A stretch of 64,000 nt of DNA, from assembly GCA_014163555.1 (NCBI GenBank), contig JACJGO010000001.1, forward strand, positions 248,001-312,000, written 5' to 3'. The notes beneath the pieces were generated by a model, which worked only from the letters and a program-made list of their open reading frames with translations, had not been told where the DNA came from and searched no databases. This document shows positions 32,744 to 51,149 of this stretch, one piece after another. Made by a program: the position numbers and the translations under genes. The DNA is from Flavisolibacter longurius. Lineage in GTDB: Bacteria; Bacteroidota; Bacteroidia; Chitinophagales; Chitinophagaceae. Positions within the stretch are counted from its first letter, which is position 1, and each line of letters begins with the position of its first letter.

Positions 32744-33798
32744 TACAACAGGTTTTTCAGCTTATCCAGATTGATGATGGAAATCTTGCCGCTTTTTATT
32801 TCAATCAATCCCTCGCTTTTGAAATCGCTCAGAGTGCGTATCAGCGATTCTGTTGCCGTGCCCACATATTGCGCAATGTCTTCCCTGGAAAATTCAATCA
32901 GGCTTTTTTGTCCGTCTTTGTTGAATTTTTCATGAATATCTACCAGGGCCTTTGCTACCCGCTTCCGCAAAGAGCTGTAAGCCAGGTTCAGCAGCCGCTC
33001 TTCTTTTTCTTTTACATTTTGGGTAACGATGCGTATAAACTTGGTAGCAATATTGATATCGCTGTAGATCATGCCCAGAAATTCTTCACGCGGTATTTGC
33101 ATGATCTCGGCATCTTCCAGGATAGTAGCGCTGTCGTCGTAGTTTTTATCTTCAATCAGCGCAGAATACCCGATAAAATCACCGGCGCTGAAAAGGTCGG
33201 TGATGTATTCTTTCCCATCCTCGTGGGTTTTGTAGGCCTTTACTTTTCCGCTAACGAGGTAATAAAGAAAACGCGGACGTTTGCTCTCTTGGTAAAGCGT
33301 TTGTTTTTTATTGAAGCTTTCCACGGCGTACTGATCGGATAAATGCTTTAGCAAGCCGGTGTCTTTTACATCTCTTACAAACTGTGAAAGGCCTTGTGGT
33401 GTAGAGGCATAATTCTGTTGCAGCACTTCGGCCTTTTTCAGCCGTACTTCAATTGCATTCAGCAGTTCAATATCCTCAAATGGCTTGGTCACATAATCAT
33501 CGGCGCCCATTTCCATGCCTTTGCGGAAATCGCTTCGCTCCGTTTTGGCCGTTAAAAAAATGAAAGGGATGTTTTGCGTGTCCGCATTTTTGCGCAGCAG
33601 GTGCAGCACGCCGTAACCGTCGAGCTCCGGCATCATGATATCACATACAATTACATCGGGTTTTTCTTTGGTGGCCACTTCCACGCCCCGCTTGCCGTTT
33701 TCGGCCGTGAGTGTTTTATAGCCTGCCAGGTCTAAAATTTCAGCCGTGTTTTCGCGTAAATCGTTGTTGTCGTCAATGACCAGAATTGTCTTCGCCAT
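32740..33798 (-). CDS. Response regulator fused to Crp/Fnr transcription factor
   Basis: A 352-residue hybrid: receiver domain (1-125; phospho-acceptor Asp53 in VIVCDIMMPELDG, Lys in VTKPFED), cyclic-nucleotide-binding-like domain (about 150-260, LYYLVSGKVKAYKTHEDGKEYI) and a Crp-type helix-turn-helix (about 290-352, FSREDIAQYVGTATESLIRTLSDF). The recognition helix keeps the Glu and Arg that read the TGA half-site in Crp/Fnr proteins; no N-terminal Fe-S cysteines are present. It overlaps the histidine kinase start by 26 bases, so the pair is coupled. It is the natural candidate for the FNR-like boxes found in this region (inference). Confidence 0.92.
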   Translation of the reverse strand: MAKTILVIDDNNDLRENTAEILDLAGYKTLTAENGKRGVEVATKEKPDVIVCDIMMPELDGYGVLHLLRKNADTQNIPFIFLTAKTERSDFRKGMEMGADDYVTKPFEDIELLNAIEVRLKKAEVLQQNYASTPQGLSQFVRDVKDTGLLKHLSDQYAVESFNKKQTLYQESKRPRFLYYLVSGKVKAYKTHEDGKEYITDLFSAGDFIGYSALIEDKNYDDSATILEDAEIMQIPREEFLGMIYSDINIATKFIRIVTQNVKEKEERLLNLAYSSLRKRVAKALVDIHEKFNKDGQKSLIEFSREDIAQYVGTATESLIRTLSDFKSEGLIEIKSGKISIINLDKLKNLLY

Positions 33799-35356
33799 GT
33801 TGATTCTCGTTTATGGGGATTGTTACGGTTACCGTGGTGCCTTCCCCCAAGGCACTCTTCAAATTTATAGAACCCCCGATTAATTCGGTGTATCGTTTTA
33901 CAATATGCAGTCCCAGGCCGGTTCCCTGGATGTTGATGGCGTTTTTGCCACGAAAGAAAGAACTGAAAAGGTGCTCCTGGTCTTCTTCTGAAATACCGAT
34001 ACCCTTGTCTGTTACCCGGATGTTGGCCACGCCTTCCTGCACTTCGCTGCCCACCTCCACGGTGGCATCTTCCGGAGAAAATTTCAATGCGTTGGAGATA
34101 AGATTGATCAGGATATTCTTCAGCAGTTTTTTGTCGCTGTACACCTCATCGGGACCGTTGTGATCGTATTTAATTTCCTGCCCGTTGCGAACCATACCCC
34201 TTACTTCGTCTATGGTATCATGAATGGTTTCAGATAAAAGAAACTCTCCTTTTTGCGCACCGATCTTGCCTTCGTCCAGCTTACCCAGGCTCAGGAAATC
34301 TTCCAACAGGTCGTTGAGGTGTTTTACACTTTCCCGGATCCGCTTTACATGTTTGTCCCGGTTAGGCTGCTGTTCGGTGGTGGTATATTTTGCAATCAAT
34401 GAAGCAGAAGAAAGCACGGAACTCAACGGGGTACGGAACTCATGCGAGGCCATGGAAACAAAACGGCTTTTGATTTCATTGAGCTGCCGCTCTTTGTCCA
34501 GGGCTTCGCTCAACTCAGCTTGCGACTGCTCCAGCCGTTGCAGGGCTTCTTTCAGAATTATGGTCCGCTCTTCCACCTTGGCTTCCAGTTCGGTGTTCAT
34601 GCGGCGCACATCGTTGGTCACTTTTTCAAGCTGCTTTTGTTGCTGCAGCATGCTGCGTTCAATTTCTTTACGATGCGTGATATCCACCACAAAAGCAATC
34701 ACGTACTGCCTGTCGTTTTGCCGGTAAGAGCTCAGGCTCACTTCCACAGGGAAATTGCTGCCGTCTTTTTTCTGCCCGAAAAGATCGCGGCCCGAACCCA
34801 TTTCCCGGTTTGACGGGTGTTCGTAAAAACCATCCCGCAACTGTACATGGCCTGCCCGATACCTTGTAGGCAACAACACTTCCACTTTCTGTCCCACCAG
34901 TTCCTGCGCATTGTACCCAAACATGTTGCAGGCTGATGGATTCACCAGCACAATCGAGGCCGTTTGGTCGGCCAGGATGATACCTTCCGTGGCGTTTTCA
35001 AAAAGAGAAGTCATGTGCGATTTATCAAACTGCATGCTTCGGAGCAGCCCTTTGATATAAAGCACAATCAGGGTAGAAAACAGGATCAGGACAAAGAGGA
35101 AAATGTATTCAGCCCAGGAAGTTTCCGTGCCTCGTCCAAGTTTGTTCCAGAACAAAAATCCAAAAACAATGGCACTGCTGCCAACACCGGCAATGAGGGT
35201 TGAACTGTGCGTGGGCACGAAAACCGAAAAGAAAATGACAACCAGCAATCCGCTGAGCGTAATGCTGTAGCCGGGCATAAAAAAGGCAAGCGCAATGGTT
35301 AAAATAAACACCAGCACCGCGTAAATCGTAGCTCTGCGACGGGAAAGTTGTGGCAT
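33773..35356 (-). CDS. Membrane histidine kinase with FixL-type PAS domain
   Basis: A 527-residue sensor kinase from the ATG at 35356 (a GTG two codons upstream is also open). Order: about four membrane helices (10-105), a PAS domain (about 112-228), a coiled coil (about 234-295), a HisKA domain with the phospho-acceptor in MASHEFRTPLSS (about residue 305), and HATPase_c with NLISNALKF, DKGIGI and GTGLGLHIV. The PAS domain follows the FixL pattern: LLPTRYRAGH (His about 170, the place of the haem-ligating His), then MGSGRDLFGQKKDGSNFPVEV. Haem binding is possible, but many haem-free relatives share these residues. It is partnered with the overlapping regulator gene. Confidence 0.92.
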   Translation of the reverse strand: MPQLSRRRATIYAVLVFILTIALAFFMPGYSITLSGLLVVIFFSVFVPTHSSTLIAGVGSSAIVFGFLFWNKLGRGTETSWAEYIFLFVLILFSTLIVLYIKGLLRSMQFDKSHMTSLFENATEGIILADQTASIVLVNPSACNMFGYNAQELVGQKVEVLLPTRYRAGHVQLRDGFYEHPSNREMGSGRDLFGQKKDGSNFPVEVSLSSYRQNDRQYVIAFVVDITHRKEIERSMLQQQKQLEKVTNDVRRMNTELEAKVEERTIILKEALQRLEQSQAELSEALDKERQLNEIKSRFVSMASHEFRTPLSSVLSSASLIAKYTTTEQQPNRDKHVKRIRESVKHLNDLLEDFLSLGKLDEGKIGAQKGEFLLSETIHDTIDEVRGMVRNGQEIKYDHNGPDEVYSDKKLLKNILINLISNALKFSPEDATVEVGSEVQEGVANIRVTDKGIGISEEDQEHLFSSFFRGKNAINIQGTGLGLHIVKRYTELIGGSINLKSALGEGTTVTVTIPINENQHGEDNSGH

Positions 35357-35398
35357 GGTCACAAATGAATCGCTTTGCGCAAACTTAAGGGAGATAGT

Positions 35399-36121
35399 TT
35401 ATAGTTGCAGCAAGCTCTTTTCCATTTCCAATACCCGCGGGAAAAGGATGTTATTTTCAAGGTGCTTGTGCTGCACCAGATCCGCGTCAAATTCTTTCAT
35501 TTTGTTATACAACACCTGGTAATTGGTACAGGCATCGGAGTTGTAGGTATACTGATCTGTCAGCTCCCGCAGGTGCTTTAAATGCGTGGCAATCCGGCCG
35601 TGTTCCACCTTCACCGTTTCAGCCAGGGGCTTGCTCATGGTGCGTACAAACAAATTCCCGTACACCTCTTTGCGGTTGTAGGTATTCACAATTTGCTTTA
35701 CATACGGAAAGATGCTTTCTTCCTCCCGGTCCGTGTGCTCTTCCACTTCGGAAACGAGGTGGTTGAAGGTTTCGTGAACAGCCGCCAGGTGCGGGAACTT
35801 TTTCAGGTGACCGGGCACATAGCTGTTCATGAATGCTTTCAGCGGTGGCAGCACCTCGCGGATATAACCGTGATGAACATGTGTAATGTAATCGATAAGA
35901 AAAGCCATGGGCCATTGCGCAAAGGCGGTGGAACTGGGCAGGTTAAAATTCCGGGTAGCCTGCTGCAGGTCTTCCTCTAACTTGACTTTGTCAACTTTCT
36001 GCAGAGCACAAGCCTCTTCCAGTGGAAGGTCGCCACCGCAACAGTAGTTGATGCCATATTTCTTGAATACGTCCGCCGTACGGTAATCATTGCGAACAAT
36101 CTGTGATACTGTTTTCGTCAT
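35399..36121 (-). CDS. ric: Iron-sulfur cluster repair di-iron protein Ric (ScdA/YtfE)
   Basis: Cytoplasmic di-iron protein that repairs Fe-S clusters damaged by nitric oxide or peroxide. 240 residues: an N-terminal DUF542 (ScdA-N) domain with TADVFKKYGINYCCGG carrying the Cys pair, then a hemerythrin-like domain with the metal-binding His/Glu set (THVHHGYIREVLP, VEEHTDREEESIFP, EHGRIATHLKHLRELTDQY, QHKHLENNILFPRV). It lies 26 bases downstream of the Rrf2 regulator gene on the same strand, a pairing typical of NO-stress operons. Confidence 0.95.
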   Translation of the reverse strand: MTKTVSQIVRNDYRTADVFKKYGINYCCGGDLPLEEACALQKVDKVKLEEDLQQATRNFNLPSSTAFAQWPMAFLIDYITHVHHGYIREVLPPLKAFMNSYVPGHLKKFPHLAAVHETFNHLVSEVEEHTDREEESIFPYVKQIVNTYNRKEVYGNLFVRTMSKPLAETVKVEHGRIATHLKHLRELTDQYTYNSDACTNYQVLYNKMKEFDADLVQHKHLENNILFPRVLEMEKSLLQL

Positions 36122-36147: not shown

Positions 36148-36603
36148 TTAGATGATCGGTTGATAATGTGTGGTAATACTTTCCAGGAAATCAGCCTTAT
36201 CGCCTTTCAGCAAGTCGCCAATGGTTGTATTGGATAAAACCTGGCGCAATTGCTGCTTTACGCCTTCCATTTGCCCGTGCAGCGGACAAGGATTGGCATG
36301 ATGGCAAGCCTGCATGCGCATCGAACAGTTCCGGAACGTATCCGGGCCATCCGTCAGGTTAAAAATTTCAATCAGTTGTATGGTCTCTGTTTCCGGCATC
36401 AGTGCAAAGCCCCCCGTTTTGCCTTTAGAAGAAGACAACACGCCGGCCTTGGCCAGCTTTTTCAGCGTCTTGCTCATAAAATGCCGGGGCACAACCAGCT
36501 TTTCCGAAATTTCTTCCGCTTGCACAAATCGTCTTGTATCCTCCAACATGGCGATATACAAAACTCCCCGCACTGCATAACCAAACGATTTGGAAAAGAT
36601 CAT
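36148..36603 (-). CDS. Rrf2-family Fe-S regulator, NsrR-like
   Basis: A 151-residue winged-helix regulator. HTH region FGYAVRGVLYIAMLEDTRRFVQAEEISEKLVVPRHFMSKTL. Three Cys (93, 100, 106 in RNCSMRMQACHHANPCPLHG) sit where NsrR/IscR bind their cluster; C-x6-C-x5-C spacing matches this class. Co-transcribed with ric, so NO sensing (NsrR role) is the likely function rather than IscR. A possible operator lies in its leader (GAC...GTC around 36611-36633, weak). It is divergent from the membrane protein gene at 36762. Confidence 0.9.
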   Translation of the reverse strand: MIFSKSFGYAVRGVLYIAMLEDTRRFVQAEEISEKLVVPRHFMSKTLKKLAKAGVLSSSKGKTGGFALMPETETIQLIEIFNLTDGPDTFRNCSMRMQACHHANPCPLHGQMEGVKQQLRQVLSNTTIGDLLKGDKADFLESITTHYQPII

Positions 36604-36654: not shown

Positions 36655-36666
36655 TGATTTTCATCA
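36655..36666. promoter_or_regulatory. FNR-like box TGATTTTCATCA
   Basis: Perfect TGAT-N4-ATCA palindrome in the divergent spacer between the rrf2-like and membrane protein genes. The identical 12-mer lies in front of the paralogous membrane protein gene at 47254. A TACTTCCT element about 20 bases on could be the -7 region for the plus-strand gene. Confidence 0.6.
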
Positions 36667-36761
36667 GGTTGGTTTTTGATTTTACTTCCTGCCTGGAAAA
36701 AGGCTGGGACAGAACTTGCAGCCGATTCTTAAATTGACCACAAACAGCAGGAACCCATGGA

Positions 36762-38039
36762 ATGTTTCTTGCTTTCAACCCTGGTAACATGCAACGGAAA
36801 AAAAGCTTCTGGATTGGTTTAAGCCTGCTGAACTTATCTCTGATTGCCCTTTTCGGGTTGTTGATGCGCAGCAAAATACTTTTCCCGATTCCGGTTTTGG
36901 ATTACCGTAACCTGCTTAGCGCCCATTCGCATTTTGCCTTTGGCGGATGGGCCGGACTGGCCCTCCTTACATTTTTGATTTACGAAGTGCTACCTGCCGA
37001 AAAAGGAAGTAAAAAGATTTACCAGACTATTCTGTGGGGGATCGAGATCAGTTCGCTGGGCATGGCAGCCACCTTTCCTTTTTGGGGATACACGGCGGTG
37101 TCCATTGGTTTTTCTTCGCTGTACATAATTGTCACGTATGTTTTCGGATGGGTATACTGGAAAGATATGCGACACCAACAATTGGACCCTGTGATCAAAA
37201 TGACAAGCCTGGGTGCGGTTGCTTCCTTACTGTTATCGGCAATCGGGCCTGCAATTTTATCCTACATACTTATTACCCACTCTACCAATTCACTGCTCTA
37301 CCGCGATGCGATTTATACCTTTTTGCATTTCCAGTACAATGGGTTTTTCACCCTGGCCATCTTTGCCACACTCTTTTCGTATTGGTTGAAAAAAGGCCAT
37401 CACCTATCCCCTACGGCAAAACGTTTTTCAGTCTTTCTTCTTTTATCACTGATACCTTCTCTTTGCCTGGCCCTGCTCTGGCATAACATGATCATCTTTT
37501 ATGTTCTGGGAGCTTTTGGCTGCCTGTGCATTTTGATTAGTGTTTGCTACTTTATTCCGCTGTACAGGGAAAGTTTACAGAATAAGCTTTTTCCCCAATC
37601 AACAGCCCGACTTTTATGGTCAGCTGCTGCCATTTCATTTATTCTGAAAATGATCCTGACGATAGGCACCATTTATCCGCCGCTGGGCAATGCTGTGTAT
37701 GGAGCCCGACCAGTTATTATCGGGTTTTTACACCTGGTGTTCCTGGGCTTTGTTTCGTTTTTTATTTTAAGCACTGCAATTGAAGATGGTTACTTTACCC
37801 GTAACCAAAAAACTATTGTGTGGCCGTTTTACCTTTTTGGCCTGGGGGTTCTGTTCAACGAAGTTTTTTTAATGCTTCAAGGGCTGGAGATTCTGTTGAA
37901 AACAAATTCACCCGTTTATTATTGGCTGTTATGGATTGGAGCCATACTTCTTTTCCTGGGATCGTTTTCCCTGGCTATTGCATTTTATTCGAACCGCACC
38001 CTACAAAAAAAAGCCGCGGCAACAGCCACGGCTTCTTAA
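36762..38039 (+). CDS. His-rich ~12-helix membrane protein, unknown (copy 1)
   Basis: A 425-residue (416 from the ATG at 36789) integral membrane protein with about 12 hydrophobic helices. Not recognised as a named family. It is a clear paralogue of the gene at 45935. Residues conserved in both: HSHFAFGGW (His55, His57), FPxxGYxAVSIxFS, DAIYTFLHFQYNGFF (His189), LLWH (His241) and GFLHLVFLGFV (His324). Five helix-borne His in this order recall haem-copper oxidase subunit I or NnrS, and the HxH...GW block resembles a cbb3-type helix. The context (Rrf2, ric, nos genes, FNR-like box) points to a haem/copper protein acting on NO or in electron transfer. This is inference. Confidence 0.7.
   Translation: MFLAFNPGNMQRKKSFWIGLSLLNLSLIALFGLLMRSKILFPIPVLDYRNLLSAHSHFAFGGWAGLALLTFLIYEVLPAEKGSKKIYQTILWGIEISSLGMAATFPFWGYTAVSIGFSSLYIIVTYVFGWVYWKDMRHQQLDPVIKMTSLGAVASLLLSAIGPAILSYILITHSTNSLLYRDAIYTFLHFQYNGFFTLAIFATLFSYWLKKGHHLSPTAKRFSVFLLLSLIPSLCLALLWHNMIIFYVLGAFGCLCILISVCYFIPLYRESLQNKLFPQSTARLLWSAAAISFILKMILTIGTIYPPLGNAVYGARPVIIGFLHLVFLGFVSFFILSTAIEDGYFTRNQKTIVWPFYLFGLGVLFNEVFLMLQGLEILLKTNSPVYYWLLWIGAILLFLGSFSLAIAFYSNRTLQKKAAATATAS
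38011..38034 (-). terminator. Terminator of the cytochrome c gene, inside a coding region
   Basis: On the minus strand AAGCCGTGG...CCGCGGCTT with one mismatch, followed by a T run. It lies downstream of the cytochrome stop, within the last codons of the convergent membrane protein gene. Confidence 0.6.
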
Positions 38040-38058
38040 ATCAAACAAACAATCCAAA

Positions 38059-38550
38059 TTAGTTTTTCCCGTCGTTCTTGCGCATAAACTCCAGCACGCC
38101 GCGGGCATCGGCATCGCTGAGGCTTTGGTTGGGCATACGCACCAAACACTCCTCCAGCATCTTTTGCGCAGCCGGATCTTTGTCAATCATTTCTTCGGTA
38201 TTGGTTACAAAGTTCATGATCCACTCAGGCGTTCTGCGGTCGGTAACCTTTGCAAAACCGGGGCCAACCAGTCGTTCTTCCGTTAGCTTATGACAAGAGG
38301 CACATTTTACCTCGTAAACATTTTTACCTGTTGCCACCATGCTTTCATCGAGCGGGTGGGTCAGCTCAACATTCTGGAATTTACCAATCCCTTTATCACT
38401 GGATTGGTTAGTTGCAGCCGAATTATCGGTTGTTGTTGTTTCCGTGCTGGTGGTAGCATCTGTACTGCCGGCGTTTTCGCCACTGTTACAAGCTACCAGG
38501 CCAGCAAAGGCTGCTACCATAAAAAACGATACAAAGCGCTTTTGATTCAT
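38059..38550 (-). CDS. Monohaem cytochrome c lipoprotein
   Basis: A 163-residue lipoprotein from the ATG at 38550: lipobox in AAFAGLVACNSGE (Cys21), then a Ser/Thr-rich linker to about residue 55, then a class I cytochrome c domain with C-x-x-C-H (CASCH, 83-87), GPGFAKVTDRRTPEWIMNFV, and a candidate axial Met in RMPNQ. It closely resembles the cytochrome at 53439 (GPALAGVDQRRSMDWIVNFV). A likely electron donor to NosZ, judging from its place. It has both an FNR-like and a GACAT box upstream. Confidence 0.93.
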   Translation of the reverse strand: MNQKRFVSFFMVAAFAGLVACNSGENAGSTDATTSTETTTTDNSAATNQSSDKGIGKFQNVELTHPLDESMVATGKNVYEVKCASCHKLTEERLVGPGFAKVTDRRTPEWIMNFVTNTEEMIDKDPAAQKMLEECLVRMPNQSLSDADARGVLEFMRKNDGKN

Positions 38551-38627
38551 AACTGTCAATTTTGAGGTCAATAATAAGCTGTTGTTAAAATGCGATAAAA
38601 TTGTGCCAATCGCTGAGGTGAAAAAAC

Positions 38628-38639
38628 TGACGAAAATCA
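38628..38639. promoter_or_regulatory. FNR-like box upstream of cytochrome c gene
   Basis: TGACGAAAATCA, which reads TGATTTTCGTCA on the minus strand: one base different from the boxes at 36655 and 47254. It is centred about 84 bases before the start codon. Confidence 0.5.
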
Positions 38640-38657
38640 CATTCCTCCCTGAAAAAA

Positions 38658-38669
38658 GACATAAATGTC
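38658..38669. promoter_or_regulatory. GACAT-N2-ATGTC palindrome upstream of cytochrome c gene
   Basis: GACATAAATGTC, a perfect 5+5 bp inverted repeat; on the minus strand it continues CTTTT toward the gene. It shares its core and 3' CTT with the boxes at 39165 and 48373. Confidence 0.5.
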
Positions 38670-38724
38670 TTTTATTCCGCAAATTCCTCTCAGTTTTCTA
38701 TCAAGCTCACACTATCATTTGTAT

Positions 38725-38958
38725 TTATTGCCCTCTTTGGATTGAATCGCTACTACCCACCTGCGACCCATTTCCAGGTGTTACATCCGGCACAATCACA
38801 GAATCATTCACCAGTTTCGTTGAGTCCGGTATGGCTTCTGATGGAGGGTGCACTACGGCCGGATCTTTTAATTCGGCGTCCGTCTGGTTGCTGTTGTTTC
38901 CGCAGGAAGAAAAAACTCCTGCCATAAAAACAAAAACAAGTAAGAATTTATAACGCAT
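38725..38958 (-). CDS. Small lipoprotein, unknown
   Basis: A 77-residue product with signal and lipobox (FLLVFVFMAGVFSSCGNN), followed by a short polar, Asp/Ser/Pro-rich tail with no further Cys or His. Probably a periplasm-facing lipoprotein of 58 residues. It sits between the cytochrome c and nosZ genes. No function can be read from it. Confidence 0.65.
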   Translation of the reverse strand: MRYKFLLVFVFMAGVFSSCGNNSNQTDAELKDPAVVHPPSEAIPDSTKLVNDSVIVPDVTPGNGSQVGSSDSIQRGQ

Positions 38959-39218
38959 ACTATTCTATTATTGTAGTGGTGAGACAAAAAATCCATGCCA
39001 ATGAAAGGAATGGTTTTCATAGATAAGGCTATTATTGAGCTCTTAAAAATTGCGAAAAACCAAGCGTATCGAGCAGCCAAAACGTATTCCTGAGTAATAT
39101 CATCTCTTCTTCTGACAGCCATCAATTCAAGCGCATCGGTAGCCTGATACATTTGTGTTTTACGGACATAGATGTCTTAATTAAATTTCTTATTACGCAC
39201 ATTTTTAAATCAACCTAT
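38959..39218. other. nosZ upstream region
   Basis: 260 bases with no gene. It holds the small-lipoprotein promoter on one strand and, for nosZ, a TACATTTG element (39148-39155) matching TAnnTTTG, followed at the expected transcription start by the GACAT palindrome at 39165. Confidence 0.5.
39148..39176 (+). promoter_or_regulatory. nosZ promoter -7 element with overlapping operator
   Basis: TACATTTG (39148-39155) fits the Bacteroidota -7 consensus. GACATAGATGTC (39165-39176), a perfect GACAT-N2-ATGTC palindrome followed by TTAA, falls just around the predicted start point, where a repressor would block transcription. A clear -33 TTTG is not seen. Confidence 0.55.
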
Positions 39219-41240
39219 ATGTACATCTCACTTCCAAAACTCATGGCCTCAGTAGCATTCACCGCCGTTACGGCGGGGGCCTTGTTTAGTTGCAAACCTA
39301 AAGGCGCTGAAGCAGCTGTCAGCGGTGATGCAGCGGCAAAAGCTTATGTGGCTCCGGGTAAGTACGATGAATTCTATAATATCGTTTCCGGCGGTTTCAA
39401 CGGCCAGATTGGTATTTATGGCATCCCTTCGGGCCGCTTATTCCGTATCGTTCCTGTTTTTTCTGTCAGCCCCGAAAGTGGCTATGGTTATTCCGAAGAA
39501 ACCAAGCCGATGCTCAACACATCGCATGGTTTTGTTCCCTGGGACGATCTGCACCACATTGCCCTTTCGCAAACCAATGGTGAACATGATGGCCGCTGGG
39601 CATTTGCCAACGGTAACAACACACCCCGCCTGGCCCGTATCGACCTTTCTACGTTCCGCACGTCAGAGATCATCGAGATCCCGAACAGTGCCGGTAACCA
39701 CGCCTCTCCTTTTATCACACAGGGTTCTGAGTACGTTGTAGCGGCAACACGTTTTTCCGTTCCGCTGGAACAAAATGCAGATGTTCCGATTAACACCTAC
39801 AAAGAGAATTTTAAAGGCTCTGTTTCTTTTATCTCTGTTGATCAGCAATCGGGCCAAATGAACCTGGCCTTCCAGATCCGCACTCCGGGTGTGAACTTTG
39901 ACCTTTCCCGTGCCGGTAAAGGAAAATCGCATGGCTGGTTTTTCTTTAGCTGCTACAACTCTGAAAAAGCCAACACCCTGCTGGAAGTAAATGCTTCTGC
40001 CAAGGATAAGGACTTTATCATGGCTGTAAACTGGAAGAAAGCAGAAGAGTACCTGCGTGCCGGTAAAGCCAAAAAAGAGGCGGTAAAGTATGCGCACAAT
40101 GTGTATGACGAAAATTCACACACAGCAACGTCTACCATCAAAACTGAAGTCCTCGTGTTAGATCCAAAAGATTGTCCTGATATGGTGTACATGATCCCTT
40201 GTCCCAAGTCGCCACATGGTACCGATGTAGACCCGTCAGGTGAATACATTGTGGGTTCAGGTAAACTGGCCGCCCTGATTCCTGTTTTCTCGTTTACAAA
40301 ATTCCAGCAAGCCATTGCCAACAAAAGCTTTGACGGCAACTACGATGGCATTCCTGTAATCAAGTACGAAGCTGCTCTGCATGGCGAAGTGCAGAAGCCA
40401 GGCCTCGGACCTTTGCACACTGAATTTGACGCTAACGGCAATGCTTACACCTCTTTCTTTGTTTCGTCTGAAATTGTAAAATGGAGCTTAAAAGACCTGA
40501 AAGTGCTGGACCGTGTACCCACGTACTACTCTATCGGTCACCTGTCAGTACCGGGTGGACCTACCAGCAAGCCCCACGGTAAATACGTGATTGCTTACAA
40601 CAAGATCACCAAAGACCGTTACCTGCCCACTGGTCCCGAGCTGACACAAAGTGCACAACTGTATTCGATCGATGGCGACAAGATGAAGCTTATACTTGAC
40701 TTCCCCACGACAGGCGAACCGCACTATGCTGAAGCCATTCCGGCCAGCCTGCTGAGAGACAAGCAAAGGAAAATCTATAAAATCGAGGAGAACACGCACC
40801 CCTACGCCGCCAAAGGCGAAGGTCAGGCCAAGGTGGTACGCGAAGGCAACAAAGTGCATGTGTACATGACGGCCATCCGTTCGCACCTCACACCGGACAA
40901 TATTGAAGGTGTTCGCCTGGGAGATGAAGTATACTTCCACGTTACCAACCTTGAGCAGGACTGGGATGTACCGCATGGTTTTGCCATCAAAGGCGCCAAC
41001 AATGCAGAAACCCTGGTAATGCCGGGTGAAACACAAACCATCAAGTTTGTTCCGGACAGAGTGGGTATGTACCCCTTCTATTGCACCGACTTCTGCTCTG
41101 CACTGCACCAGGAAATGCAGGGATATCTCAGGGTTTCACCAGCCGGCAGCAATATACCGCTTGCTTTTAGCACAGGCACCAACAAACCTGCTGCTGCAAC
41201 AGCTGGCGACACGAGCAAAAAAGCTACAACCAAACCATAA
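39219..41240 (+). CDS. nosZ: Nitrous oxide reductase NosZ, clade II (Sec-type)
   Basis: Periplasmic copper enzyme reducing N2O to N2, the last denitrification step. The ATG at 39219 gives 673 residues with a Sec-type leader ending in a possible lipobox (AVTAGALFSCKPKG) and no twin-Arg, the mark of clade II enzymes. The N-terminal seven-bladed propeller carries the CuZ His set (DDLHHIALSQTNGEHDGRW, NSAGNHASPF, SPHGTDVDPSG, GPLHTEFD, SKPHGKY). The C-terminal cupredoxin domain carries CuA: FYCTDFCSALHQEM (C-x3-C-x3-H-x2-M, about 620-635). It is first in a plus-strand nos gene series ending with nosY. Confidence 0.98.
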   Translation: MYISLPKLMASVAFTAVTAGALFSCKPKGAEAAVSGDAAAKAYVAPGKYDEFYNIVSGGFNGQIGIYGIPSGRLFRIVPVFSVSPESGYGYSEETKPMLNTSHGFVPWDDLHHIALSQTNGEHDGRWAFANGNNTPRLARIDLSTFRTSEIIEIPNSAGNHASPFITQGSEYVVAATRFSVPLEQNADVPINTYKENFKGSVSFISVDQQSGQMNLAFQIRTPGVNFDLSRAGKGKSHGWFFFSCYNSEKANTLLEVNASAKDKDFIMAVNWKKAEEYLRAGKAKKEAVKYAHNVYDENSHTATSTIKTEVLVLDPKDCPDMVYMIPCPKSPHGTDVDPSGEYIVGSGKLAALIPVFSFTKFQQAIANKSFDGNYDGIPVIKYEAALHGEVQKPGLGPLHTEFDANGNAYTSFFVSSEIVKWSLKDLKVLDRVPTYYSIGHLSVPGGPTSKPHGKYVIAYNKITKDRYLPTGPELTQSAQLYSIDGDKMKLILDFPTTGEPHYAEAIPASLLRDKQRKIYKIEENTHPYAAKGEGQAKVVREGNKVHVYMTAIRSHLTPDNIEGVRLGDEVYFHVTNLEQDWDVPHGFAIKGANNAETLVMPGETQTIKFVPDRVGMYPFYCTDFCSALHQEMQGYLRVSPAGSNIPLAFSTGTNKPAAATAGDTSKKATTKP

Positions 41241-41306
41241 TCAATTATCAAAGCATCCCGTTGTCGTTAAGCCGGGCAGCGGGACTGCTTCTTTAAAAGC
41301 TGTTTT

Positions 41307-41864
41307 ATGAAAAAAATATTTGTATTTGGAATCGCCTCTCTCCTCTTGTGGGCCTGCAATTCTGGCAACACAGAAGCTACGACGTCAACAGAAACCGAAG
41401 CTGCTGTAGGTGGTGGACAATCTGCCGTAGTAGATGATGAATCGGCAAAAGACGTGGTAAAAGTTGCAGCCGGCTCACCCGATCATACAACACTTGTAGC
41501 TGCAGTTAAAAAAGCAGAACTGGTGGATGCACTTTCCAATGCAGGACCGTTTACCGTGTTTGCCCCGGTGAATGCAGCCTTTGATAAATTACCGGCCGGA
41601 ACGGTTGACGACCTGATGAAGCCGGAGAACAAAGAGAAACTGCAGGACATTTTGCAGTATCATGTATATGTAGGCAGTTTGAATACAAACCTGATGCAGG
41701 ATGGCCAAACGCTGAACCAGGTGAATGGCGGCAACATCACCATTAGTAAAGACGCGGAAGGCAAAATAAAAATCAACAACAGTGCTACAGTAGTAGCCAG
41801 TATCCCGGCCTCGAATGGCATCATTCATGTGATAGATGCTGTTTTATTGCCGCCGGCGAAATAA
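41307..41864 (+). CDS. Fasciclin-domain lipoprotein
   Basis: A 185-residue lipoprotein (lipobox SLLLWACNSGN) with one FAS1 domain: VKVAAGSPDHTTLVAAVKKAELVDALSNAGPFTVFAPVNAAFDKLP, LQYHVYVG and NGIIHVIDAVLLPP. FAS1 domains mediate adhesion or protein contacts. Its place between nosZ and the nosL-containing gene suggests an accessory role at the N2O reductase, but that is inference. A strong terminator-like hairpin follows it. Confidence 0.9.
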   Translation: MKKIFVFGIASLLLWACNSGNTEATTSTETEAAVGGGQSAVVDDESAKDVVKVAAGSPDHTTLVAAVKKAELVDALSNAGPFTVFAPVNAAFDKLPAGTVDDLMKPENKEKLQDILQYHVYVGSLNTNLMQDGQTLNQVNGGNITISKDAEGKIKINNSATVVASIPASNGIIHVIDAVLLPPAK

Positions 41865-41871
41865 CCTAACC

Positions 41872-41906
41872 AAACAATCCGGGGCTAACTGCTCCGGATT
41901 GTTTTA
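41872..41906 (+). terminator. Intra-cluster terminator between fasciclin and nosL genes
   Basis: AAACAATCCGG/CCGGATTGTTT 11-bp stem with an 11-base loop and a T run. It divides the nos cluster into nosZ-fasciclin and nosL-nosD-nosF-nosY, probably letting only part of the transcription through. Confidence 0.75.
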
Positions 41907-41919
41907 AAAACCCGATAGC

Positions 41920-42957
41920 ATGAAAAAGATGAGCACGATTTCAAGGACATTAATAGCAGTTGCATCGGCAGGCATGATTGCAGTTTTTTTCTTACCTGTA
42001 TGGGCCATTTACCTCATAGCACCCCAATACCCCGAAGGACTGGAAATGAACATCTGGCTGACAAAGATTACCGGTCAGGTTGACATTATCAATGGATTAA
42101 ACCACTACATCGGTATGAAGCACATTAGTGCTGACATGTTTCCCGAGTTTGGTTATATGAAATACATCCTTGCCGGCTTTATCGTGTATGGATTGCTGGT
42201 AGCCGTCATCGGCAGCCGTAAGTTCTTACTTTCTCTTCTTGTGTTAACCGTTCTCCTGGCTGGTGCCGCCCTTTACGATTTCTACCAGTGGGGCTACGAT
42301 TATGGTCACAACCTCGACCCTAACGCCGCTATTAAAGTACCCGGCTTCAGCTACCAACCACCCGTTATTGGCCATAAAACCTTACTGAATTTTGACGCTT
42401 ACTCCTACCCCGACACAGGTGGATGGATCATCACCATTGCCGGTGCCGTTTTCTTTCTGGTTTATTTTTATGAGTGGTATAAAAACAGAAAGCTTGTGCA
42501 AACAACAAAAGGATCAAAACAAGTTGCATCGTCCAAAATGGCTGTTGCTGCTCTGGCAGTAGTCATGCTTTCTTCCTGCAATACAGAACCGGAACCATTT
42601 GCCATTGGTAAGGACCTTTGCGAAGATTGCAAGATGACGATCATGGAGCCGCAGTTTGGCGCGGAGATTATCACCAACAAAGGAAGAATCTTTAAATTTG
42701 ACGACCTGCACTGCGTAGTCAATTACATCAACAAAGAAAAAATAGCCCAGAGCGATATAAAACAAACGGTTGCTATTGACTACAACAATGCCAACCAGTT
42801 TGTAAATGTTACAGAAGCGGCGTTTGTAACCAGCCCGCAATTAAAAAGCCCGATGAACAGCAACACAGCAGCCTTTGCCACTAAAGATGCAGCGGAGAAA
42901 ATAGCTGCCCAAACCGGTGGGACACTGAAAGACTGGAACGCTGTTTTGAAACCCTAA
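41920..42957 (+). CDS. nosL: Membrane protein-NosL fusion, copper delivery to NosZ
   Basis: A 345-residue fusion. Residues 1-200 are a membrane part with four helices (about 10-33, 82-97, 102-120, 168-185) and a periplasmic loop with NHYIGMKHIS. Residues 207-345 are a NosL copper chaperone: MAVAALAVVMLSSCNTEP looks exactly like a lipoprotein signal with lipobox Cys220, then CEDCKM (Cys234, Cys237, Met239), FGAEIITNKGRIFKFDDLHCVVNYI. The lipobox now lies inside the chain; no good leader precedes the internal ATG. It is followed 15 bases on by nosD. Confidence 0.9.
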   Translation: MKKMSTISRTLIAVASAGMIAVFFLPVWAIYLIAPQYPEGLEMNIWLTKITGQVDIINGLNHYIGMKHISADMFPEFGYMKYILAGFIVYGLLVAVIGSRKFLLSLLVLTVLLAGAALYDFYQWGYDYGHNLDPNAAIKVPGFSYQPPVIGHKTLLNFDAYSYPDTGGWIITIAGAVFFLVYFYEWYKNRKLVQTTKGSKQVASSKMAVAALAVVMLSSCNTEPEPFAIGKDLCEDCKMTIMEPQFGAEIITNKGRIFKFDDLHCVVNYINKEKIAQSDIKQTVAIDYNNANQFVNVTEAAFVTSPQLKSPMNSNTAAFATKDAAEKIAAQTGGTLKDWNAVLKP

Positions 42958-42972
42958 GAACCGGAGATACCA

Positions 42973-44205
42973 ATGAAACAGCTCCTGACCATACTCTTCT
43001 TTTTCTTTGTCCTGCCGGCCTGGTCACGAACAATCGTGGTTGGTCCTGCCGAAAGCATTAAAACGGTGAAGGGCGGATTTAGTGCTGCAGTAAACGGCGA
43101 CACGGTGCTGCTGAAAAAAGGCGTTTACAAAGAAGGCAACCTGCAACTGACCAAATCCATTTTTTTTATTGGTGAAGAAGGCGCTGTGCTGGATGGCGAG
43201 CATAAAAATGAGATCCTCACCATCAGCGGCGAAGGCATTGTTGTAAAAGGCATCCGGTTTCAATACTCCGGTTATTCCAGCATGAATGATTATGCATCTA
43301 TTAAACTGGTGGACGCCTCATTTGTGTTGCTGGAAAACAACGTGATCGACCAAGCTTATTTTGCCATCCACATTGCCAACTCCACTTATTGTGTGGTACG
43401 AAACAACACCATCACCGGACTCACAAAAACCGAACAAACATCGGGCAACGGCATTCACCTCTGGAAATGCGAGAACATGCTGGTGAAGGGAAACACTGTC
43501 CAGGGCCACCGCGACGGAATCTATTTTGAATTTGTCACCCACTCTACCATCGAAGACAACAACAGCTTTAACAACATCCGGTACGGCCTTCACTTTATGT
43601 TCTCCAACAACGACAGTTACATTGGCAACACCTTCACCGGAAATGGTGCCGGTGTGGCCGTGATGTATTCGCACCACGTACTGATGCACAGCAACCGCTT
43701 TGAGCAAAACTGGGGACCAAATGCCTACGGCCTGCTCCTGAAAGAGATCAACGACTCGCAAATCATCAGCAATACGTTTGATAAAAACACCGTGGGTGTG
43801 CTGATGGAAACCACCAACCGGATTGAAGTGGCAAACAACCAGTTCCGGAACAACGGCTGGGCCCTGCGCATTCAGGCCAGTTGCGATGACAACCTGGTGC
43901 AGCAAAATGATTTTGCCGCCAACACCTTTGATGTGGCAACCAACGGCAGCCTGACGCTGAATCGCTTTGTGCACAATTATTGGGACAAATATGACGGCTA
44001 CGATATGAACCGCGATGGTATTGGCGATGTGCCCTACCATCCGGTGAGTATGTACTCGATGGTGATAGAACAGAATCCGAATGCGGTGATCCTGATGCGA
44101 AGCTTTATGGTGACCTTGCTGGATAAGGCGGAAAAAGCCATTCCCAGCCTGACACCAGAAAACCTCGTGGATGAAGCACCGGTAATGAAAATGATTACAC
44201 GATGA
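42973..44205 (+). CDS. nosD: NosD, periplasmic CASH-repeat accessory protein
   Basis: A 410-residue exported protein (signal QLLTILFFFFVLPAWS) needed with NosF and NosY for CuZ maturation in NosZ. A right-handed beta-helix of carbohydrate-binding/sugar-hydrolase repeats is plain: ENNVIDQAYFAIHIANSTYCVVRNNTI, LVKGNTVQGHRDGIYFEF, STIEDNNSFNNIRYGLHFMFSNNDSYIGNTF and so on, ending with the NosD block HNYWDKYDGYDMNRDGIGD. Its stop overlaps the nosF start (ATGA). Confidence 0.97.
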   Translation: MKQLLTILFFFFVLPAWSRTIVVGPAESIKTVKGGFSAAVNGDTVLLKKGVYKEGNLQLTKSIFFIGEEGAVLDGEHKNEILTISGEGIVVKGIRFQYSGYSSMNDYASIKLVDASFVLLENNVIDQAYFAIHIANSTYCVVRNNTITGLTKTEQTSGNGIHLWKCENMLVKGNTVQGHRDGIYFEFVTHSTIEDNNSFNNIRYGLHFMFSNNDSYIGNTFTGNGAGVAVMYSHHVLMHSNRFEQNWGPNAYGLLLKEINDSQIISNTFDKNTVGVLMETTNRIEVANNQFRNNGWALRIQASCDDNLVQQNDFAANTFDVATNGSLTLNRFVHNYWDKYDGYDMNRDGIGDVPYHPVSMYSMVIEQNPNAVILMRSFMVTLLDKAEKAIPSLTPENLVDEAPVMKMITR

Positions 44206-44945
44206 TACACATAGAGAATCTGCAGAAGCGCTTTAAGAAGTTACAGGCCCTGCACAATATAACAGTGGACTTTCAGAAAGGACAGGTGATTTCACTGATT
44301 GGTCCAAACGGCTCGGGAAAGACCACGCTGATCAAAAGCATACTGGGACTGGTAAGGCCTGATAGCGGGAAAATAACCTTCAATGGTGTTCCGGTGGAGA
44401 AAGACATTGCCTACCGCCGCAACATTGGTTATATGCCGCAGATAGGCCGCTACCCCGACAACATGACCATCGGCCAGTTGTTCAGCATGATGAAAAACCT
44501 GCACAACGATCGCAAGCAACTGGATGAAGAACTTTTTCAGAGCTTCAAGCTGCACACCATGCTGGAAAAGCCCATGAAGGGGTTGTCGGGCGGTACGCGG
44601 CAGAAAGTAAGTGCAGCGCTGGCGTTTATGTTTGATGCGGAAGTTTTGATTCTGGACGAACCCACCGCCGGCCTCGATCCGCTGTCATCGGAAATCCTGA
44701 AAGAAAAAATCCTCAAAGAAAAACAGAAAGGAAAACTGATTCTGATTACATCGCATATCCTGACCGATCTGGAAGAGCTGACCACGGACGTGTTGTACCT
44801 GCAGGACGGACAGGTTGTGTTTTACAAATCGCTGCAGAATCTTTTCGCCCTTACCGGTGAAGACAAACTGGGTAAAGCCATCGCATACTTTATGCGGTAT
44901 GGCATCAAACCGAAAGAATTAAATCAATTGAAAATTGCAAAATAG
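44202..44945 (+). CDS. nosF: NosF, ABC transporter ATPase
   Basis: A 247-residue cytoplasmic ATPase of the NosDFY complex. Walker A IGPNGSGKTTLIKS, Q-loop YMPQIG, signature LSGGTRQKVSAAL, Walker B VLILDEPTAGLDP and H-loop ITSH are all intact. It overlaps nosD by 4 bases (coupled). A heptamer repeat array starts at the base after its TAG stop and separates it from nosY. Confidence 0.97.
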   Translation: MIHIENLQKRFKKLQALHNITVDFQKGQVISLIGPNGSGKTTLIKSILGLVRPDSGKITFNGVPVEKDIAYRRNIGYMPQIGRYPDNMTIGQLFSMMKNLHNDRKQLDEELFQSFKLHTMLEKPMKGLSGGTRQKVSAALAFMFDAEVLILDEPTAGLDPLSSEILKEKILKEKQKGKLILITSHILTDLEELTTDVLYLQDGQVVFYKSLQNLFALTGEDKLGKAIAYFMRYGIKPKELNQLKIAK

Positions 44946-45040
44946 TGAGTGGTGAATTGTGAATGGTGAGTAGTGAAGCCATTATTTTTAGAACAACATA
45001 CTCACGACTGACCACTGATCATTCACAACTCACAATCCAC
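44946..45040. repeat. Mirrored heptamer array D between nosF and nosY
   Basis: Starting directly after the nosF stop: TGAGTGG, TGAATTG, TGAATGG, TGAGTAG, TGAAGCC (44946-44980). An opposite arm TACTCAC, GACTGAC, CACTGAT, CATTCAC, AACTCAC, AATCCAC occupies 44999-45040, ending 14 bases before the nosY start. The arms can form a long imperfect hairpin within the operon. Confidence 0.8.
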
Positions 45041-45054
45041 AAAAATATTTCGTT

Positions 45055-45822
45055 ATGCTTAAGCTATCCAAATACGTCCTTTACGATATTCTCCGCAACA
45101 AAGTGGTGCTGGCCTATACGGCCTTCCTGTTGCTGGTTTCGTTTTCTCTTTTCCAAATGGAAGAAAACAGCAGCAAAGCGGTATTGAGCCTGCTGAACAT
45201 TGTGCTGATTGTTGTACCGCTGGTGAGCATGGTGTTTTCCACTATTCACTGGTACAACTCCTATGAATTCATTGAACTGATGCTGACGCAACCTGTGAGC
45301 AGACGAAATGTTTTGCTCAGCGAATTTGCAGGCATTGGATCTTCCCTTGTTACAGCCTATCTGGTGGGTGTGGGCATACCCGTGCTCCTTTATAATTTCG
45401 ACAGTACGGGCATGGCGCTGCTCCTGATTGGCGCCCTTCTTACGCTTGTCTTTACGGCGATAGCTTTTTTCGCCTCCATCAAGTCAAGAGACAAGGCCCG
45501 TGGCATTGGTGCCGCCCTCCTGCTATGGTTTTATTTTGCGCTGATCTTCGATGGCCTGCTCCTGCTGGTGTTGTTTACATTTTCCGATTATCCGCTGGAA
45601 AAGATCATCCTCTTCCTTTCTTCTTTCAATCCCATTGACCTTGGACGAATTTACCTCATGCTGCAGATGGATGTAAGCGCTTTGATGGGATATACCGGCG
45701 CCGTGTACAAAGACTTTTTCGGTGGCCAGGCTGGCCTGTTTTACACGCTGGGAATCCTGTTGCTCTGGATCGCAGTGCCGCTTTTACTTTCTATCCGGTC
45801 TTTCAACAAAAAAGATTTGTAA
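45055..45822 (+). CDS. nosY: NosY, ABC transporter permease
   Basis: A 255-residue inner-membrane permease with six helices, partner of NosF. Family pattern: KYVLYDILRNKVVLAYTAFLLLVSFSLF, YNSYEFIELMLTQPVSRRNVLLSEFAG (ABC-2 type), and FSDYPLEKIILFLSSFNPIDLGRIYLMLQMD, typical of NosY. It ends the nos series; the next gene is convergent. Confidence 0.95.
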   Translation: MLKLSKYVLYDILRNKVVLAYTAFLLLVSFSLFQMEENSSKAVLSLLNIVLIVVPLVSMVFSTIHWYNSYEFIELMLTQPVSRRNVLLSEFAGIGSSLVTAYLVGVGIPVLLYNFDSTGMALLLIGALLTLVFTAIAFFASIKSRDKARGIGAALLLWFYFALIFDGLLLLVLFTFSDYPLEKIILFLSSFNPIDLGRIYLMLQMDVSALMGYTGAVYKDFFGGQAGLFYTLGILLLWIAVPLLLSIRSFNKKDL

Positions 45823-45934
45823 TTCGACAGTTACCGTTCCAATAGGTACAAGATCATTAAAAGGAAAGTAAGCCTGTTCTCAGATCAATCCTGACCGGAA
45901 TCTATTGCTGCTTTCTGTACCAATTTATTTCAGA

Positions 45935-47197
45935 CTACCCGATTGTGAAAGGCGCCGATTCTTCCAGCCTTTGGCTTACGCTTCTTCCGGAAAAAGGCTT
46001 TTTTGCTAGCAGAGAGCGGAGTATAAAGATAATCCCCAGCGGAAAGAACACACTGAAAGCTATCAAACATTCCGTGTAAAATGGGATTCGAAATGAAAAG
46101 ACCGCACCGGCTGCCTGCAGCACTAACAGGGTTTCGGTTGTAAAAAAGGAGAAAAGAAAAAAGCCCAATCCTTGTTTGGATGATCTTCTATCGGGCAGCA
46201 CGCTGGCAAAAACAAAAAGTGTAACAAATCCCAGTAACACCAAGTGCAGGTAAGCAATCACCAGGTTGCGTTGTTCATAAGCCAATTGCGCCACCGCCGG
46301 AAATGCACTAAAAACCTGCAGCAGGCTTTTCAGCACCAGGGCTGAGAGCGAAAGATACAGGAGAAAAGATTTGTTCAAACCCGCTCTGACAACATCTTTC
46401 AGGAGATAGAAAACAGCCGCAAGTTGCAATAGGGCTGCGGCACCGCCTAGCCAATTGAACAAGACAGAAGGTTGATGCCAAAGGATGGAAAGTGCATACG
46501 CTGGTACAAGGGCTGTGTTCAATAAGAAAAACACTTTATTACCGTAAACCGTCTTCCCCCTTTTCTCTAGCATGCGATACAAAAGAGCCAGTACAAAAAA
46601 GGTAAAAAAGCCATTGTACTGAAAGTGCAGGTAGAAGTAGATAGCATCAAAATAAAGCGGGCTACCGCTTTTGCCCATCGCCATCAGGGGGCCCAATGCA
46701 AACGGTCCGAGAGAAGACAGGCAGGCATAAAACAGTCCCCATGTTATAAACCGGTATGATGTGGTTGTTGGCAGCGTTGATACCACTTTGGCAACAACAA
46801 CAGTGAGATAGACCGTAGCCACAATTGCCACCGTGGAAAAAGAAATACTCACGGCTTTGTATCCCTGCAGGGGAAAAGCGATCAGCATGCCGTAAGCCGA
46901 CAACAGGATCAGCGCCGCCGTATTTCGCCAATGACGATACGGGATTTTTTCCCCGATGCCGGGAAAGCACTTCATGAGCAGCACAAACAACACCAGCATC
47001 ACCCAGCCTGTAAATGCAAAATGCGAATGGCCGTGCAAAATATTTTTATAGGTAAAAGGGAAAGAAGAAAGCAGCGGAAAGGCCCGCAGCAAAACGCCCA
47101 GCAAGGCAACTACCAGCAGGTTTACAAAAGACAGCAACAACAATCGTCGTTGCAAGATGTCCTTTTTTGTCTTCTCGATGCTGGCGGTAAAGGGCAT
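45935..47197 (-). CDS. His-rich ~12-helix membrane protein, unknown (copy 2)
   Basis: 420 residues from the ATG at 47197 (a TTG two codons upstream is open). Paralogue of the gene at 36762 with the same helix layout and conserved motifs: HGHSHFAFTGW (His57, His59), FPLQGYKAVSISFS, DAIYFYLHFQYNGFF (His191), ILWH (His241) and AYLHLVLLGFV (His318). The N-terminus carries a charged cytoplasmic segment (IEKTKKDILQRR). Possible haem/copper ligands at the helix His; function unknown. It is transcribed toward nosY and has an FNR-like box identical to that of copy 1. Confidence 0.7.
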   Translation of the reverse strand: MPFTASIEKTKKDILQRRLLLLSFVNLLVVALLGVLLRAFPLLSSFPFTYKNILHGHSHFAFTGWVMLVLFVLLMKCFPGIGEKIPYRHWRNTAALILLSAYGMLIAFPLQGYKAVSISFSTVAIVATVYLTVVVAKVVSTLPTTTSYRFITWGLFYACLSSLGPFALGPLMAMGKSGSPLYFDAIYFYLHFQYNGFFTFFVLALLYRMLEKRGKTVYGNKVFFLLNTALVPAYALSILWHQPSVLFNWLGGAAALLQLAAVFYLLKDVVRAGLNKSFLLYLSLSALVLKSLLQVFSAFPAVAQLAYEQRNLVIAYLHLVLLGFVTLFVFASVLPDRRSSKQGLGFFLFSFFTTETLLVLQAAGAVFSFRIPFYTECLIAFSVFFPLGIIFILRSLLAKKPFSGRSVSQRLEESAPFTIG

Positions 47198-47253
47198 GCA
47201 CAAAGGTGCGGCTTACCAGTCGCCCACTTGCTTTTCTTTCTCAAAGCAATGGC

Positions 47254-47265
47254 TGATTTTCATCA
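47254..47265. promoter_or_regulatory. FNR-like box TGATTTTCATCA upstream of copy 2
   Basis: Identical to the 12-mer at 36655. It is centred about 62 bases before the start codon. A separate inverted repeat CATCG-N5-CGATG lies at 47285-47299. Confidence 0.6.
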
Positions 47266-48388: not shown

Positions 48389-48778
48389 ATGAAACTGGTT
48401 GTTGTTTCCATATTAATTCTTCTAATGGCCACCCAGGCATTCAGCAAATGGGTGATCCTGCTGGAATTTAACCGCAACAGGGATTATATAGCGCAGAATC
48501 TTTGCGAAAACAGGACAAAGCCCTTGGTCAAATGTGGGGGCAAATGCCAGTTGACAAAAGCCCTCGAAAAAGATGAAAAGGGCTCTTCGTCTTCGCAAAC
48601 CGCTAAATCGGGCTTTGTTGAAATATTGTTTTTACAGGCAGGTTCTGACGAACAAGGTCCTCTGCTTACCACCTCATTATCCGGCCAATGGCCACCGTTT
48701 CAAATGCAGCTTGCCGTTCTTCCACCACACGCCATCTTTCATCCCCCGGCTTCGGTAACCGATTCCATTGCCTCTTAG
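48389..48778 (+). CDS. Small exported Cys-containing protein preceding TonB receptor
   Basis: A 129-residue protein with a signal peptide (LVVVSILILLMATQAFS). A conserved-looking core NRDYIAQNLCENRTKPLVKCGGKCQLTKALEK contains three Cys (C-x9-C-x3-C), followed by a low-complexity middle and a Pro/His tail (LPPHAIFHPPAS). Such proteins are found in front of TonB receptor genes in Bacteroidota; a metal-binding role is likely but unproven. The end may overlap an alternative upstream start of the receptor gene. Confidence 0.7.
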   Translation: MKLVVVSILILLMATQAFSKWVILLEFNRNRDYIAQNLCENRTKPLVKCGGKCQLTKALEKDEKGSSSSQTAKSGFVEILFLQAGSDEQGPLLTTSLSGQWPPFQMQLAVLPPHAIFHPPASVTDSIAS

Positions 48779-48812
48779 TTCCGTTCATTCATTGTTCATC
48801 GAAACGTTTACC

Positions 48813-51146: not shown

Positions 51147-51149
51147 ACA

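Follow-up and report, generated by a model that had tools for sequence, protein, structure and literature searches.

Paired membrane proteins flanking a Bacteroidota nos cluster: a possible haem-copper oxidase branch with a dismantled catalytic centre and a tentative role in nitric oxide tolerance

Haem-copper oxidases are known as enzymes. In their subunit I we take one His in each of transmembrane helices (TM) 2 and 10 to bind the low-spin haem, a further His in TM10 to bind the high-spin haem, and a TM6 His together with a TM7 His-His pair to bind the active-site metal. Two other described systems come close to the locus treated here. NnrS is described as a membrane protein with haem and copper that relieves nitric oxide (NO) stress (PMC10256816), and NosB as a polytopic membrane protein encoded in clade II nos clusters and marked by the motifs LNHYIGM and YGHN (PMC9697520). 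We analysed a 64,000-nucleotide (nt) stretch of Flavisolibacter longurius (assembly GCA_014163555.1, contig JACJGO010000001.1, positions 248,001 to 312,000), called the window below, in which two related membrane proteins of an uncharacterised family, designated FAM1 and FAM2, flank the gene series nosZ-fasciclin-nosBL-D-F-Y. The reading we favour, which in our judgment falls just short of an even prospect, is that both belong to an undescribed, catalytically dismantled branch of the haem-copper oxidases and serve as a membrane haem b NO-tolerance factor akin to NnrS.

The open reading frames (ORFs) of FAM1 and FAM2 are 425 and 422 amino acids long. The first-pass annotation had called the two genes paralogues, and the translations do align at 34% identity (1e-35). 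A Met stands at FAM1 residue 10, equivalent to FAM2 residue 3, in 62 of 98 rows of the family alignment, so that the true starts are likely the ATG codons at 36789 and 47197. A recent duplication was rejected: in a quick tree FAM1 (32 rows) and FAM2 (8 rows) fall in separate supported clades, and on this sequence evidence FAM2 is an ancient paralogue of FAM1. Two family matches were found in 10 of 18 same-genus genomes searched, the source genome included (one match is a partial ORF); six of the ten have both genes on a single contig and no more than 20 kb apart, three have them on different contigs, and in one they are far apart.

Neither protein matches any model in Pfam or NCBIfam (the best E value, 0.16, is noise), and no significant match to PDB sequences was obtained for FAM1 or for the family profile, as expected of the uncharacterised family proposed from the first inspection. 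A plasmid search of 72,556 records returned a single family match, from Bacteroidota, and in a scan for close relatives across 84,980 species the 79 loci examined, from the best 80 of 117, all have Bacteroidota titles. So far the family is found only in Bacteroidota, although more distant relatives may exist in other phyla. No description of it was found in the literature searched, which did not cover subscription papers, and in the one annotated record seen, a Tunicatimonas plasmid, the FAM protein is annotated as hypothetical.

An AlphaFold2 model of FAM1, computed from 69 family rows (alignment A1), has a predicted local distance difference test score (pLDDT) of 94.1, a predicted template-modelling score of 0.93, and twelve membrane helices. 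When the model is compared with PDB by Foldseek, the top 23 chains are all haem-copper oxidases by title and length, and the matches to this fold include NorB, cbb3, bo3, aa3, qNOR, and ba3. The best is NorB 4xyd_A (E 1.8e-6, template-modelling score 0.76 by query length), and the first non-oxidase fold appears only at E 0.10. For FAM2, a model from an alignment that left out near relatives of FAM1 (A2, 42 rows) reaches a pLDDT of 91.4; its first 18 chains are again haem-copper oxidases, with the next fold at E 0.42. Because 39 of the 42 rows of A2 also occur in A1, the two models are not independent. We consider the predicted haem-copper oxidase fold of both proteins well supported. An ordinary transporter was also considered and was rejected, since neither model has a confident match to a non-oxidase fold.

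A profile of 119 family rows aligned with a combined NorB/CcoN profile (26 rows) at Prob 88.7 and E 2.6e-6, with 387 columns in register. Control comparisons gave Prob 0.21 for the reversed profile and 0.07-0.52 for five other membrane families, and the same combined-profile comparison with 98 family rows gave Prob 54.7. Pfam model PF00115 finds no match above its cut-off; one of 69 members matches at E 0.025. Homology to the haem-copper oxidases is supported mainly by the modelled fold and the combined profile. The resemblance to these oxidases noted in the first-pass annotation is upheld by the fold of both paralogues and by the combined-profile alignment, and its statement that neither haem-copper oxidase subunit I nor NnrS was an obvious match holds for sequence (Pfam, NCBIfam, and PDB) and fails for fold, where haem-copper oxidase subunit I is the match.

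Metal ligands were mapped through this combined profile. The low-spin haem ligands of TM2 and TM10 have H55 and H324 as their counterparts in this alignment. W63 pairs with a Trp, H189 with the metal-binding His of TM6, and N193 with the Glu of NO reductases; L236/A237 occupy the positions of the TM7 His-His pair, and F322 that of the high-spin haem His. The conserved residues of FAM1 are R36, H55, H57, W63, H189, N193, K296, R316, H324, and E367. Of these R36, H55, W63, and H324, along with G194, are invariant in 119/119 sequences, and the others counted are nearly so (H57 118, K296 118, H189 116, E367 116, and N193 114, with Glu at 193 in two), as is Q191. Position 322 is Tyr in 80 and Phe in 39 sequences, never His. 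The TM7 His-His pair is absent from all 119; positions 236 and 237 are mostly Leu or Ser, with His at 236 in two and at 237 in none. Three distant members (L177, L178, and L179) lack H189 and E367 but have H55, H57, and H324. Five conserved membrane histidines had been claimed at first inspection. Four stand, as the 98-row alignment shows (H55 98/98, H57 97/98, H189 98/98, H324 98/98), and the fifth, in the motif LLWH or ILWH, is present in 25/119 and does not.

By alignment, then, the bis-His low-spin haem site (H55 and H324) is the constant core of the family, and loss of the ligands of the catalytic centre is well supported. Lacking both the high-spin haem His and the TM7 His-His, a FAM protein is not a working NO reductase by known chemistry, and the earlier suggestion of a divergent NO reductase was not borne out: both features are missing in 119/119, and the TM6 Glu has become Asn in 114/119. 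As far as we searched, the fold is known, and the dismantled state and its NO-linked setting are new.

The features of the locus, with boxes given without strand except where a strand was assigned, are these:

35399..36121, minus strand: ric/YtfE-type iron-sulphur repair di-iron protein (TIGR03652, 190 bits against a cut-off of 205)
36148..36603, minus strand: Rrf2-family regulator (exceeds the cut-off of the generic Rrf2 superfamily model but not those of the NsrR and IscR models)
36655..36666: FNR/DNR-like box TGATTTTCATCA, between Rrf2 and FAM1
36762..38039, plus strand: FAM1, 12-TM protein of predicted haem-copper oxidase fold, probable start 36789
38059..38682, minus strand: cytochrome c lipoprotein (by eye), convergent with FAM1, probable start 38550
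38628..38639, minus strand: box TGATTTTCGTCA with one mismatch, some 78 nt upstream of position 38550, where the cytochrome c gene probably starts
39153..41240, plus strand: nosZ, Sec-dependent nitrous-oxide reductase (TIGR04246, 934 bits)
41307..41864, plus strand: fasciclin-domain lipoprotein (by eye), inside the nos cluster
41920..42957, plus strand: NosB-NosL fusion (motifs LNHYIGM and YGHN read by eye)
42973..44205, plus strand: nosD (named by eye and after an annotated relative)
44202..44945, plus strand: nosF ATPase (named by eye and after an annotated relative)
45055..45822, plus strand: nosY permease, convergent with FAM2 (named by eye and after an annotated relative)
45935..47203, minus strand: FAM2, same predicted fold as FAM1, probable start 47197
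47254..47265: second copy of box TGATTTTCATCA, 56 nt upstream of the FAM2 ATG at 47197

The ORF map agrees with the gene order first described, with FAM1 divergent from the Rrf2-ric pair and FAM2 convergent with nosY. The ORF cluster of the fasciclin-domain protein was found again in 27 of 80 loci, mostly adjoining nos or FAM genes. Next to ric lies a PAS histidine kinase gene (33773-35362), which overlaps a gene (32740-33798) for a response-regulator receiver fused to a Crp-type domain (by eye). Following FAM2, the interval 48389-52715 encodes a small conserved protein, a TonB-type receptor, and a PepSY-like membrane protein (by eye), which may possibly serve metal (copper) uptake; the first two also adjoin FAM2-type genes in loci L075 and L081.

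Linkage of the family to genes of NO and nitrous oxide (N2O) metabolism in other genomes, which the first-pass annotation proposed to survey, is supported. We surveyed 392 Bacteroidota genomes, accepting the family at E 1e-10 or better and nosZ at 1e-60 and scoring up to four family candidates per genome. The family occurs in 90 (51 at 1e-50), nosZ in 143, and both in 70 (Fisher p 5e-20, kinship ignored). Among 93 family gene places, 58 share a contig with nosZ, 48 lie within 15 kb of it, and 55 within 30 kb. Twenty genomes with the family have no nosZ. In fifteen strong-match genomes of this kind the surroundings of FAM include ric in 12, nirK in 9, qNOR in 8, and at least one of the three in 13; the exceptions are L165 and L173. 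Because nosZ-less genomes carry ric, nirK, or qNOR around FAM, the family is not specific to nosZ, and the common denominator is NO. Several of these genomes share the order Rrf2-azurin-qNOR-ric-FAM with nirK next door, and hidden Markov models identified one azurin, one NirK, and one qNOR in such loci. The Tunicatimonas plasmid has the run Rrf2-ric-FAM-cytochrome c-nosZ, in which ric and FAM overlap by four bases.

In the 79 loci from named genomes, examined for N-oxide genes, we found nosZ in 36, ric in 17, a NorB-type gene in 11, a nirK-like gene in 5 (the one tested scored 176 bits against a NirK cut-off of 296), and any of these in 48. Eleven loci (L042, L049, L051, L055, L062, L063, L066, L067, L071, L081, and L088) encode Bacteroidota NorB-like proteins. 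Ten of these adjoin a NorC-like cytochrome, and L051 is cut by a contig end. All eleven have H-(A/S)-M in place of H-x-H in TM10, and they have Gly at the aligned TM6 metal His and keep the TM7 His-His; judged from these motifs, they are possibly a variant form of NO reductase in which Met is a haem ligand. Another oxidase-like membrane protein, likewise uncharacterised, was seen in L034, L035, L037, L039, and L087 (ORF cluster 38) and at L113:24460-25833. It has a weak COX1 match (E 5e-4, below cut-off), and it reaches Prob 50 against the FAM profile in a helix-shifted register. Genes in its vicinity are of DUF1858/DUF2249 type, of DUF59 type (by eye), and ric, and a comparable arrangement occurs in Rhizobium.

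Cytochromes in the neighbourhood bear on the strongest rival explanation, which we judge unlikely though well ahead of the others: that the proteins are membrane electron-transfer cytochromes b, working between the quinol pool and a periplasmic cytochrome c or azurin that feeds NosZ, NirK, or NorB, in place of donors of the NosR/NosGH type. The retained low-spin haem site would suit such a role, and azurin and cytochromes occur nearby in other loci. After removal of sequences more than 85% identical, neighbours were counted for 26 FAM1-like loci and 43 others. A cytochrome c gene is adjacent in 18 of the 26 FAM1-like loci, including loci that lack N-oxide genes; among other long ORFs the rate is 19%. 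In the other 43, however, cytochrome c is no commoner than background (adjacent in 6 against 19%, within three genes in 16 against 35%). FAM also adjoins qNOR, which draws electrons from quinol itself, and a cytochrome with a single haem would presumably require a quinol site, still hypothetical here. Some loci of the FAM1 clade (L043, L049, L052, L058, L061, and L101) contain at least one small cytochrome c and a porin-like protein (ORF clusters 15, 29, and 30, by eye), and five of these six have none of the tested N-oxide genes.

Both FAM promoters had been reported to carry the same box, and exact copies of TGATTTTCATCA are indeed present at 36655-36666 and 47254-47265, the former 51 nt from the Rrf2 start and 122 nt from the FAM1 ATG at 36789. 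With at most one mismatch allowed, the window has five sites against 0.63 expected. The whole genome (5.66 Mb) has five exact copies, one inside an ORF (by eye) and four upstream of genes, namely Rrf2/FAM1, FAM2, hemA, and a universal stress protein (names and starts by eye); the hemA copy is about 220 nt from the divergent hemH. The receiver-Crp protein encoded at 32740-33798 is a candidate reader of the box. The core, TGATN4ATCA, is that of the FNR/DNR box TTGATnnnnATCAA, described as governing nir, nor, and nos (PMC1274295). Upstream stretches of the family genes were taken from 350 nt ahead of the ORF start to 60 nt past it. One of 98 was too short; 20 of the remaining 97 contain the core, compared with 3.1% of 410-nt stretches drawn at random from those loci (binomial p 2e-11, kinship ignored). 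The bare core was rejected as a specific regulon marker and is weak evidence, because it is common (138 sites in the genome).

The copy of the box at hemA, the linkage with several metalloenzymes, and the TonB-type receptor and small conserved protein ORF clusters beside some FAM2-type genes would all suit a haem or copper carrier or maturation factor for NosZ, NirK, or Nor, in which the HxH of TM2 and H189 might form a transfer path. We think this improbable: the confident fold matches are haem-copper oxidases, with no transporter fold among them, and different metalloenzymes accompany FAM in different genomes. Still less probable is a working but rebuilt NO reductase with H57, H189, K296, and E367 as a new active site. 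NorB and cbb3 are the nearest folds, the TM6 His is kept in 116/119, and the other polar residues are nearly invariant, yet neither the high-spin haem His nor the TM7 His-His is found in any member, and NorB-type or qNOR genes coexist with FAM in part of the loci. Least credible is a membrane sensor of NO or O2 that signals to an adjacent regulator, for although Crp or Rrf2 genes adjoin 32 of 69 family genes (26 of the 43 that are not FAM1-like) against a background of 8%, neither model has a visible extra signalling domain, and Crp- and Rrf2-type regulators are soluble sensors themselves.

We favour an NO-tolerance haem b protein because the family has one conserved haem site and no catalytic site, NO-type company in many loci, and fitting regulation. 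The fold and the profile homology were computed, as were the pattern of kept and lost ligands, the gene linkage, and the box; we infer haem b binding, NO handling, the electron partner, and the placement of the other polar residues. The protein would keep the 12-helix fold and a bis-His low-spin haem b site (H55 in TM2, H324 in TM10) and would have lost the high-spin haem ligand, now Tyr or Phe, and the TM7 His-His pair that binds the active-site metal in the oxidases; H57, H189, Q191, N193, K296, and E367 may line the emptied active-site side. Produced through FNR-like and Rrf2 regulation whenever the cell forms or encounters NO, it would act as NnrS does in Proteobacteria: it would hold NO, or NO-damaged iron or haem, and would exchange electrons with a periplasmic cytochrome c, which would leave NosZ, NirK, and iron-sulphur enzymes in working order. 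With slightly more doubt we entertain the wider proposal, that a new haem-copper oxidase branch, its O2/NO-reducing centre removed and its low-spin haem kept, replaces NnrS as an NO-protection protein across a phylum.

Membership in NnrS itself, which the first-pass annotation had raised, was rejected on sequence. FAM1 and FAM2 have no match to PF05940, the model is absent from the 25 of 30 families listed for FAM relatives, and the family profile reaches Prob 0.15 against 16 NnrS sequences. The loci of these NnrS proteins, from proteobacterial plasmids, have NO-type neighbours in 7 of 16 cases (mostly with short flanks) and none in 9 (one unannotated), the neighbours being nirK, DUF2249, hemerythrin, globin, Rrf2, NnrT/NnrU, and pseudoazurin. 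In NnrS an HxH (16 and 15 of 16) opens the hydrophobic stretch presumed to be TM2, and a His (in LH) near a late stretch, presumably TM10, is invariant. A layout of this kind common to NnrS and FAM is a hint only.

Several points weigh against the NO-tolerance reading. The FAM1 and FAM2 models share most of their alignment rows. Prob 88.7 is under the usual 95% line and depends on the combined profile. Profiles of single subfamilies are weak (Bacteroidota NorB 6.7, canonical NO reductase 29, CcoN 7.9); the Bacteroidota NorB alignment also shifts TM10 to another register, and canonical NO reductase or CcoN alone gives only partial, helix-shifted matches. The H55/H324 pairing was assigned by alignment, not from coordinates, and binding of haem, copper, and NO is only predicted. 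The NnrS analogy draws on gene company and a motif layout read from hydropathy, not on sequence (Prob 0.15), and the search for PF05940 in Bacteroidota, above cut-off in 0 of 61 genomes with one sub-cut-off match (E 9.9e-4), is of unproved power, as 0 of 14 control genomes were detected. None of the tested N-oxide genes is found in 31 of the 79 loci (some contigs are short), and cytochromes c adjoin FAM in many loci of that kind, which favours an electron-transfer role. Lastly, NorB-type and qNOR genes adjoin FAM, so that NO removal does not depend on FAM alone.

If the NO-tolerance reading is true, a widespread relative with a dismantled centre is a case of the haem-copper oxidase fold reused for another task, and the Bacteroidota, many of which have nosZ (143/392 sampled), gain an NO-handling component, annotated as hypothetical on the Tunicatimonas plasmid. 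FAM would be a testable marker of NO metabolism beside nosZ, ric, nirK, and qNOR, of relevance to biological N2O sinks.

Among the known systems, NosB resembles FAM as a polytopic membrane protein of a nos cluster, and identity with it was rejected, given the separate NosB-NosL fusion at 41920-42957 and the absence (by eye) of LNHYIGM and YGHN from FAM1 and FAM2. NnrS has in common with FAM part of its gene company (nirK, nor, ric, Rrf2, and Crp genes) and a similar kind of regulation (PMC1274295). The NorB of cNOR is the best structural match of FAM1 and shares the position of the TM6 motif H-x3-(E/N)-G; FAM differs from it in having Asn for the TM6 Glu (114/119), in its missing active-site ligands, and in lacking a constant NorC neighbour. 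Unlike haem-copper oxidase subunit I at large (PF00115: NorB, CcoN, and CoxA), FAM lacks the high-spin haem His, the TM7 His-His, and a PF00115 match above cut-off, but like it FAM has the predicted 12-TM fold, a full-length profile match, and, by alignment, the low-spin His pair of TM2 and TM10 together with the TM6 His.

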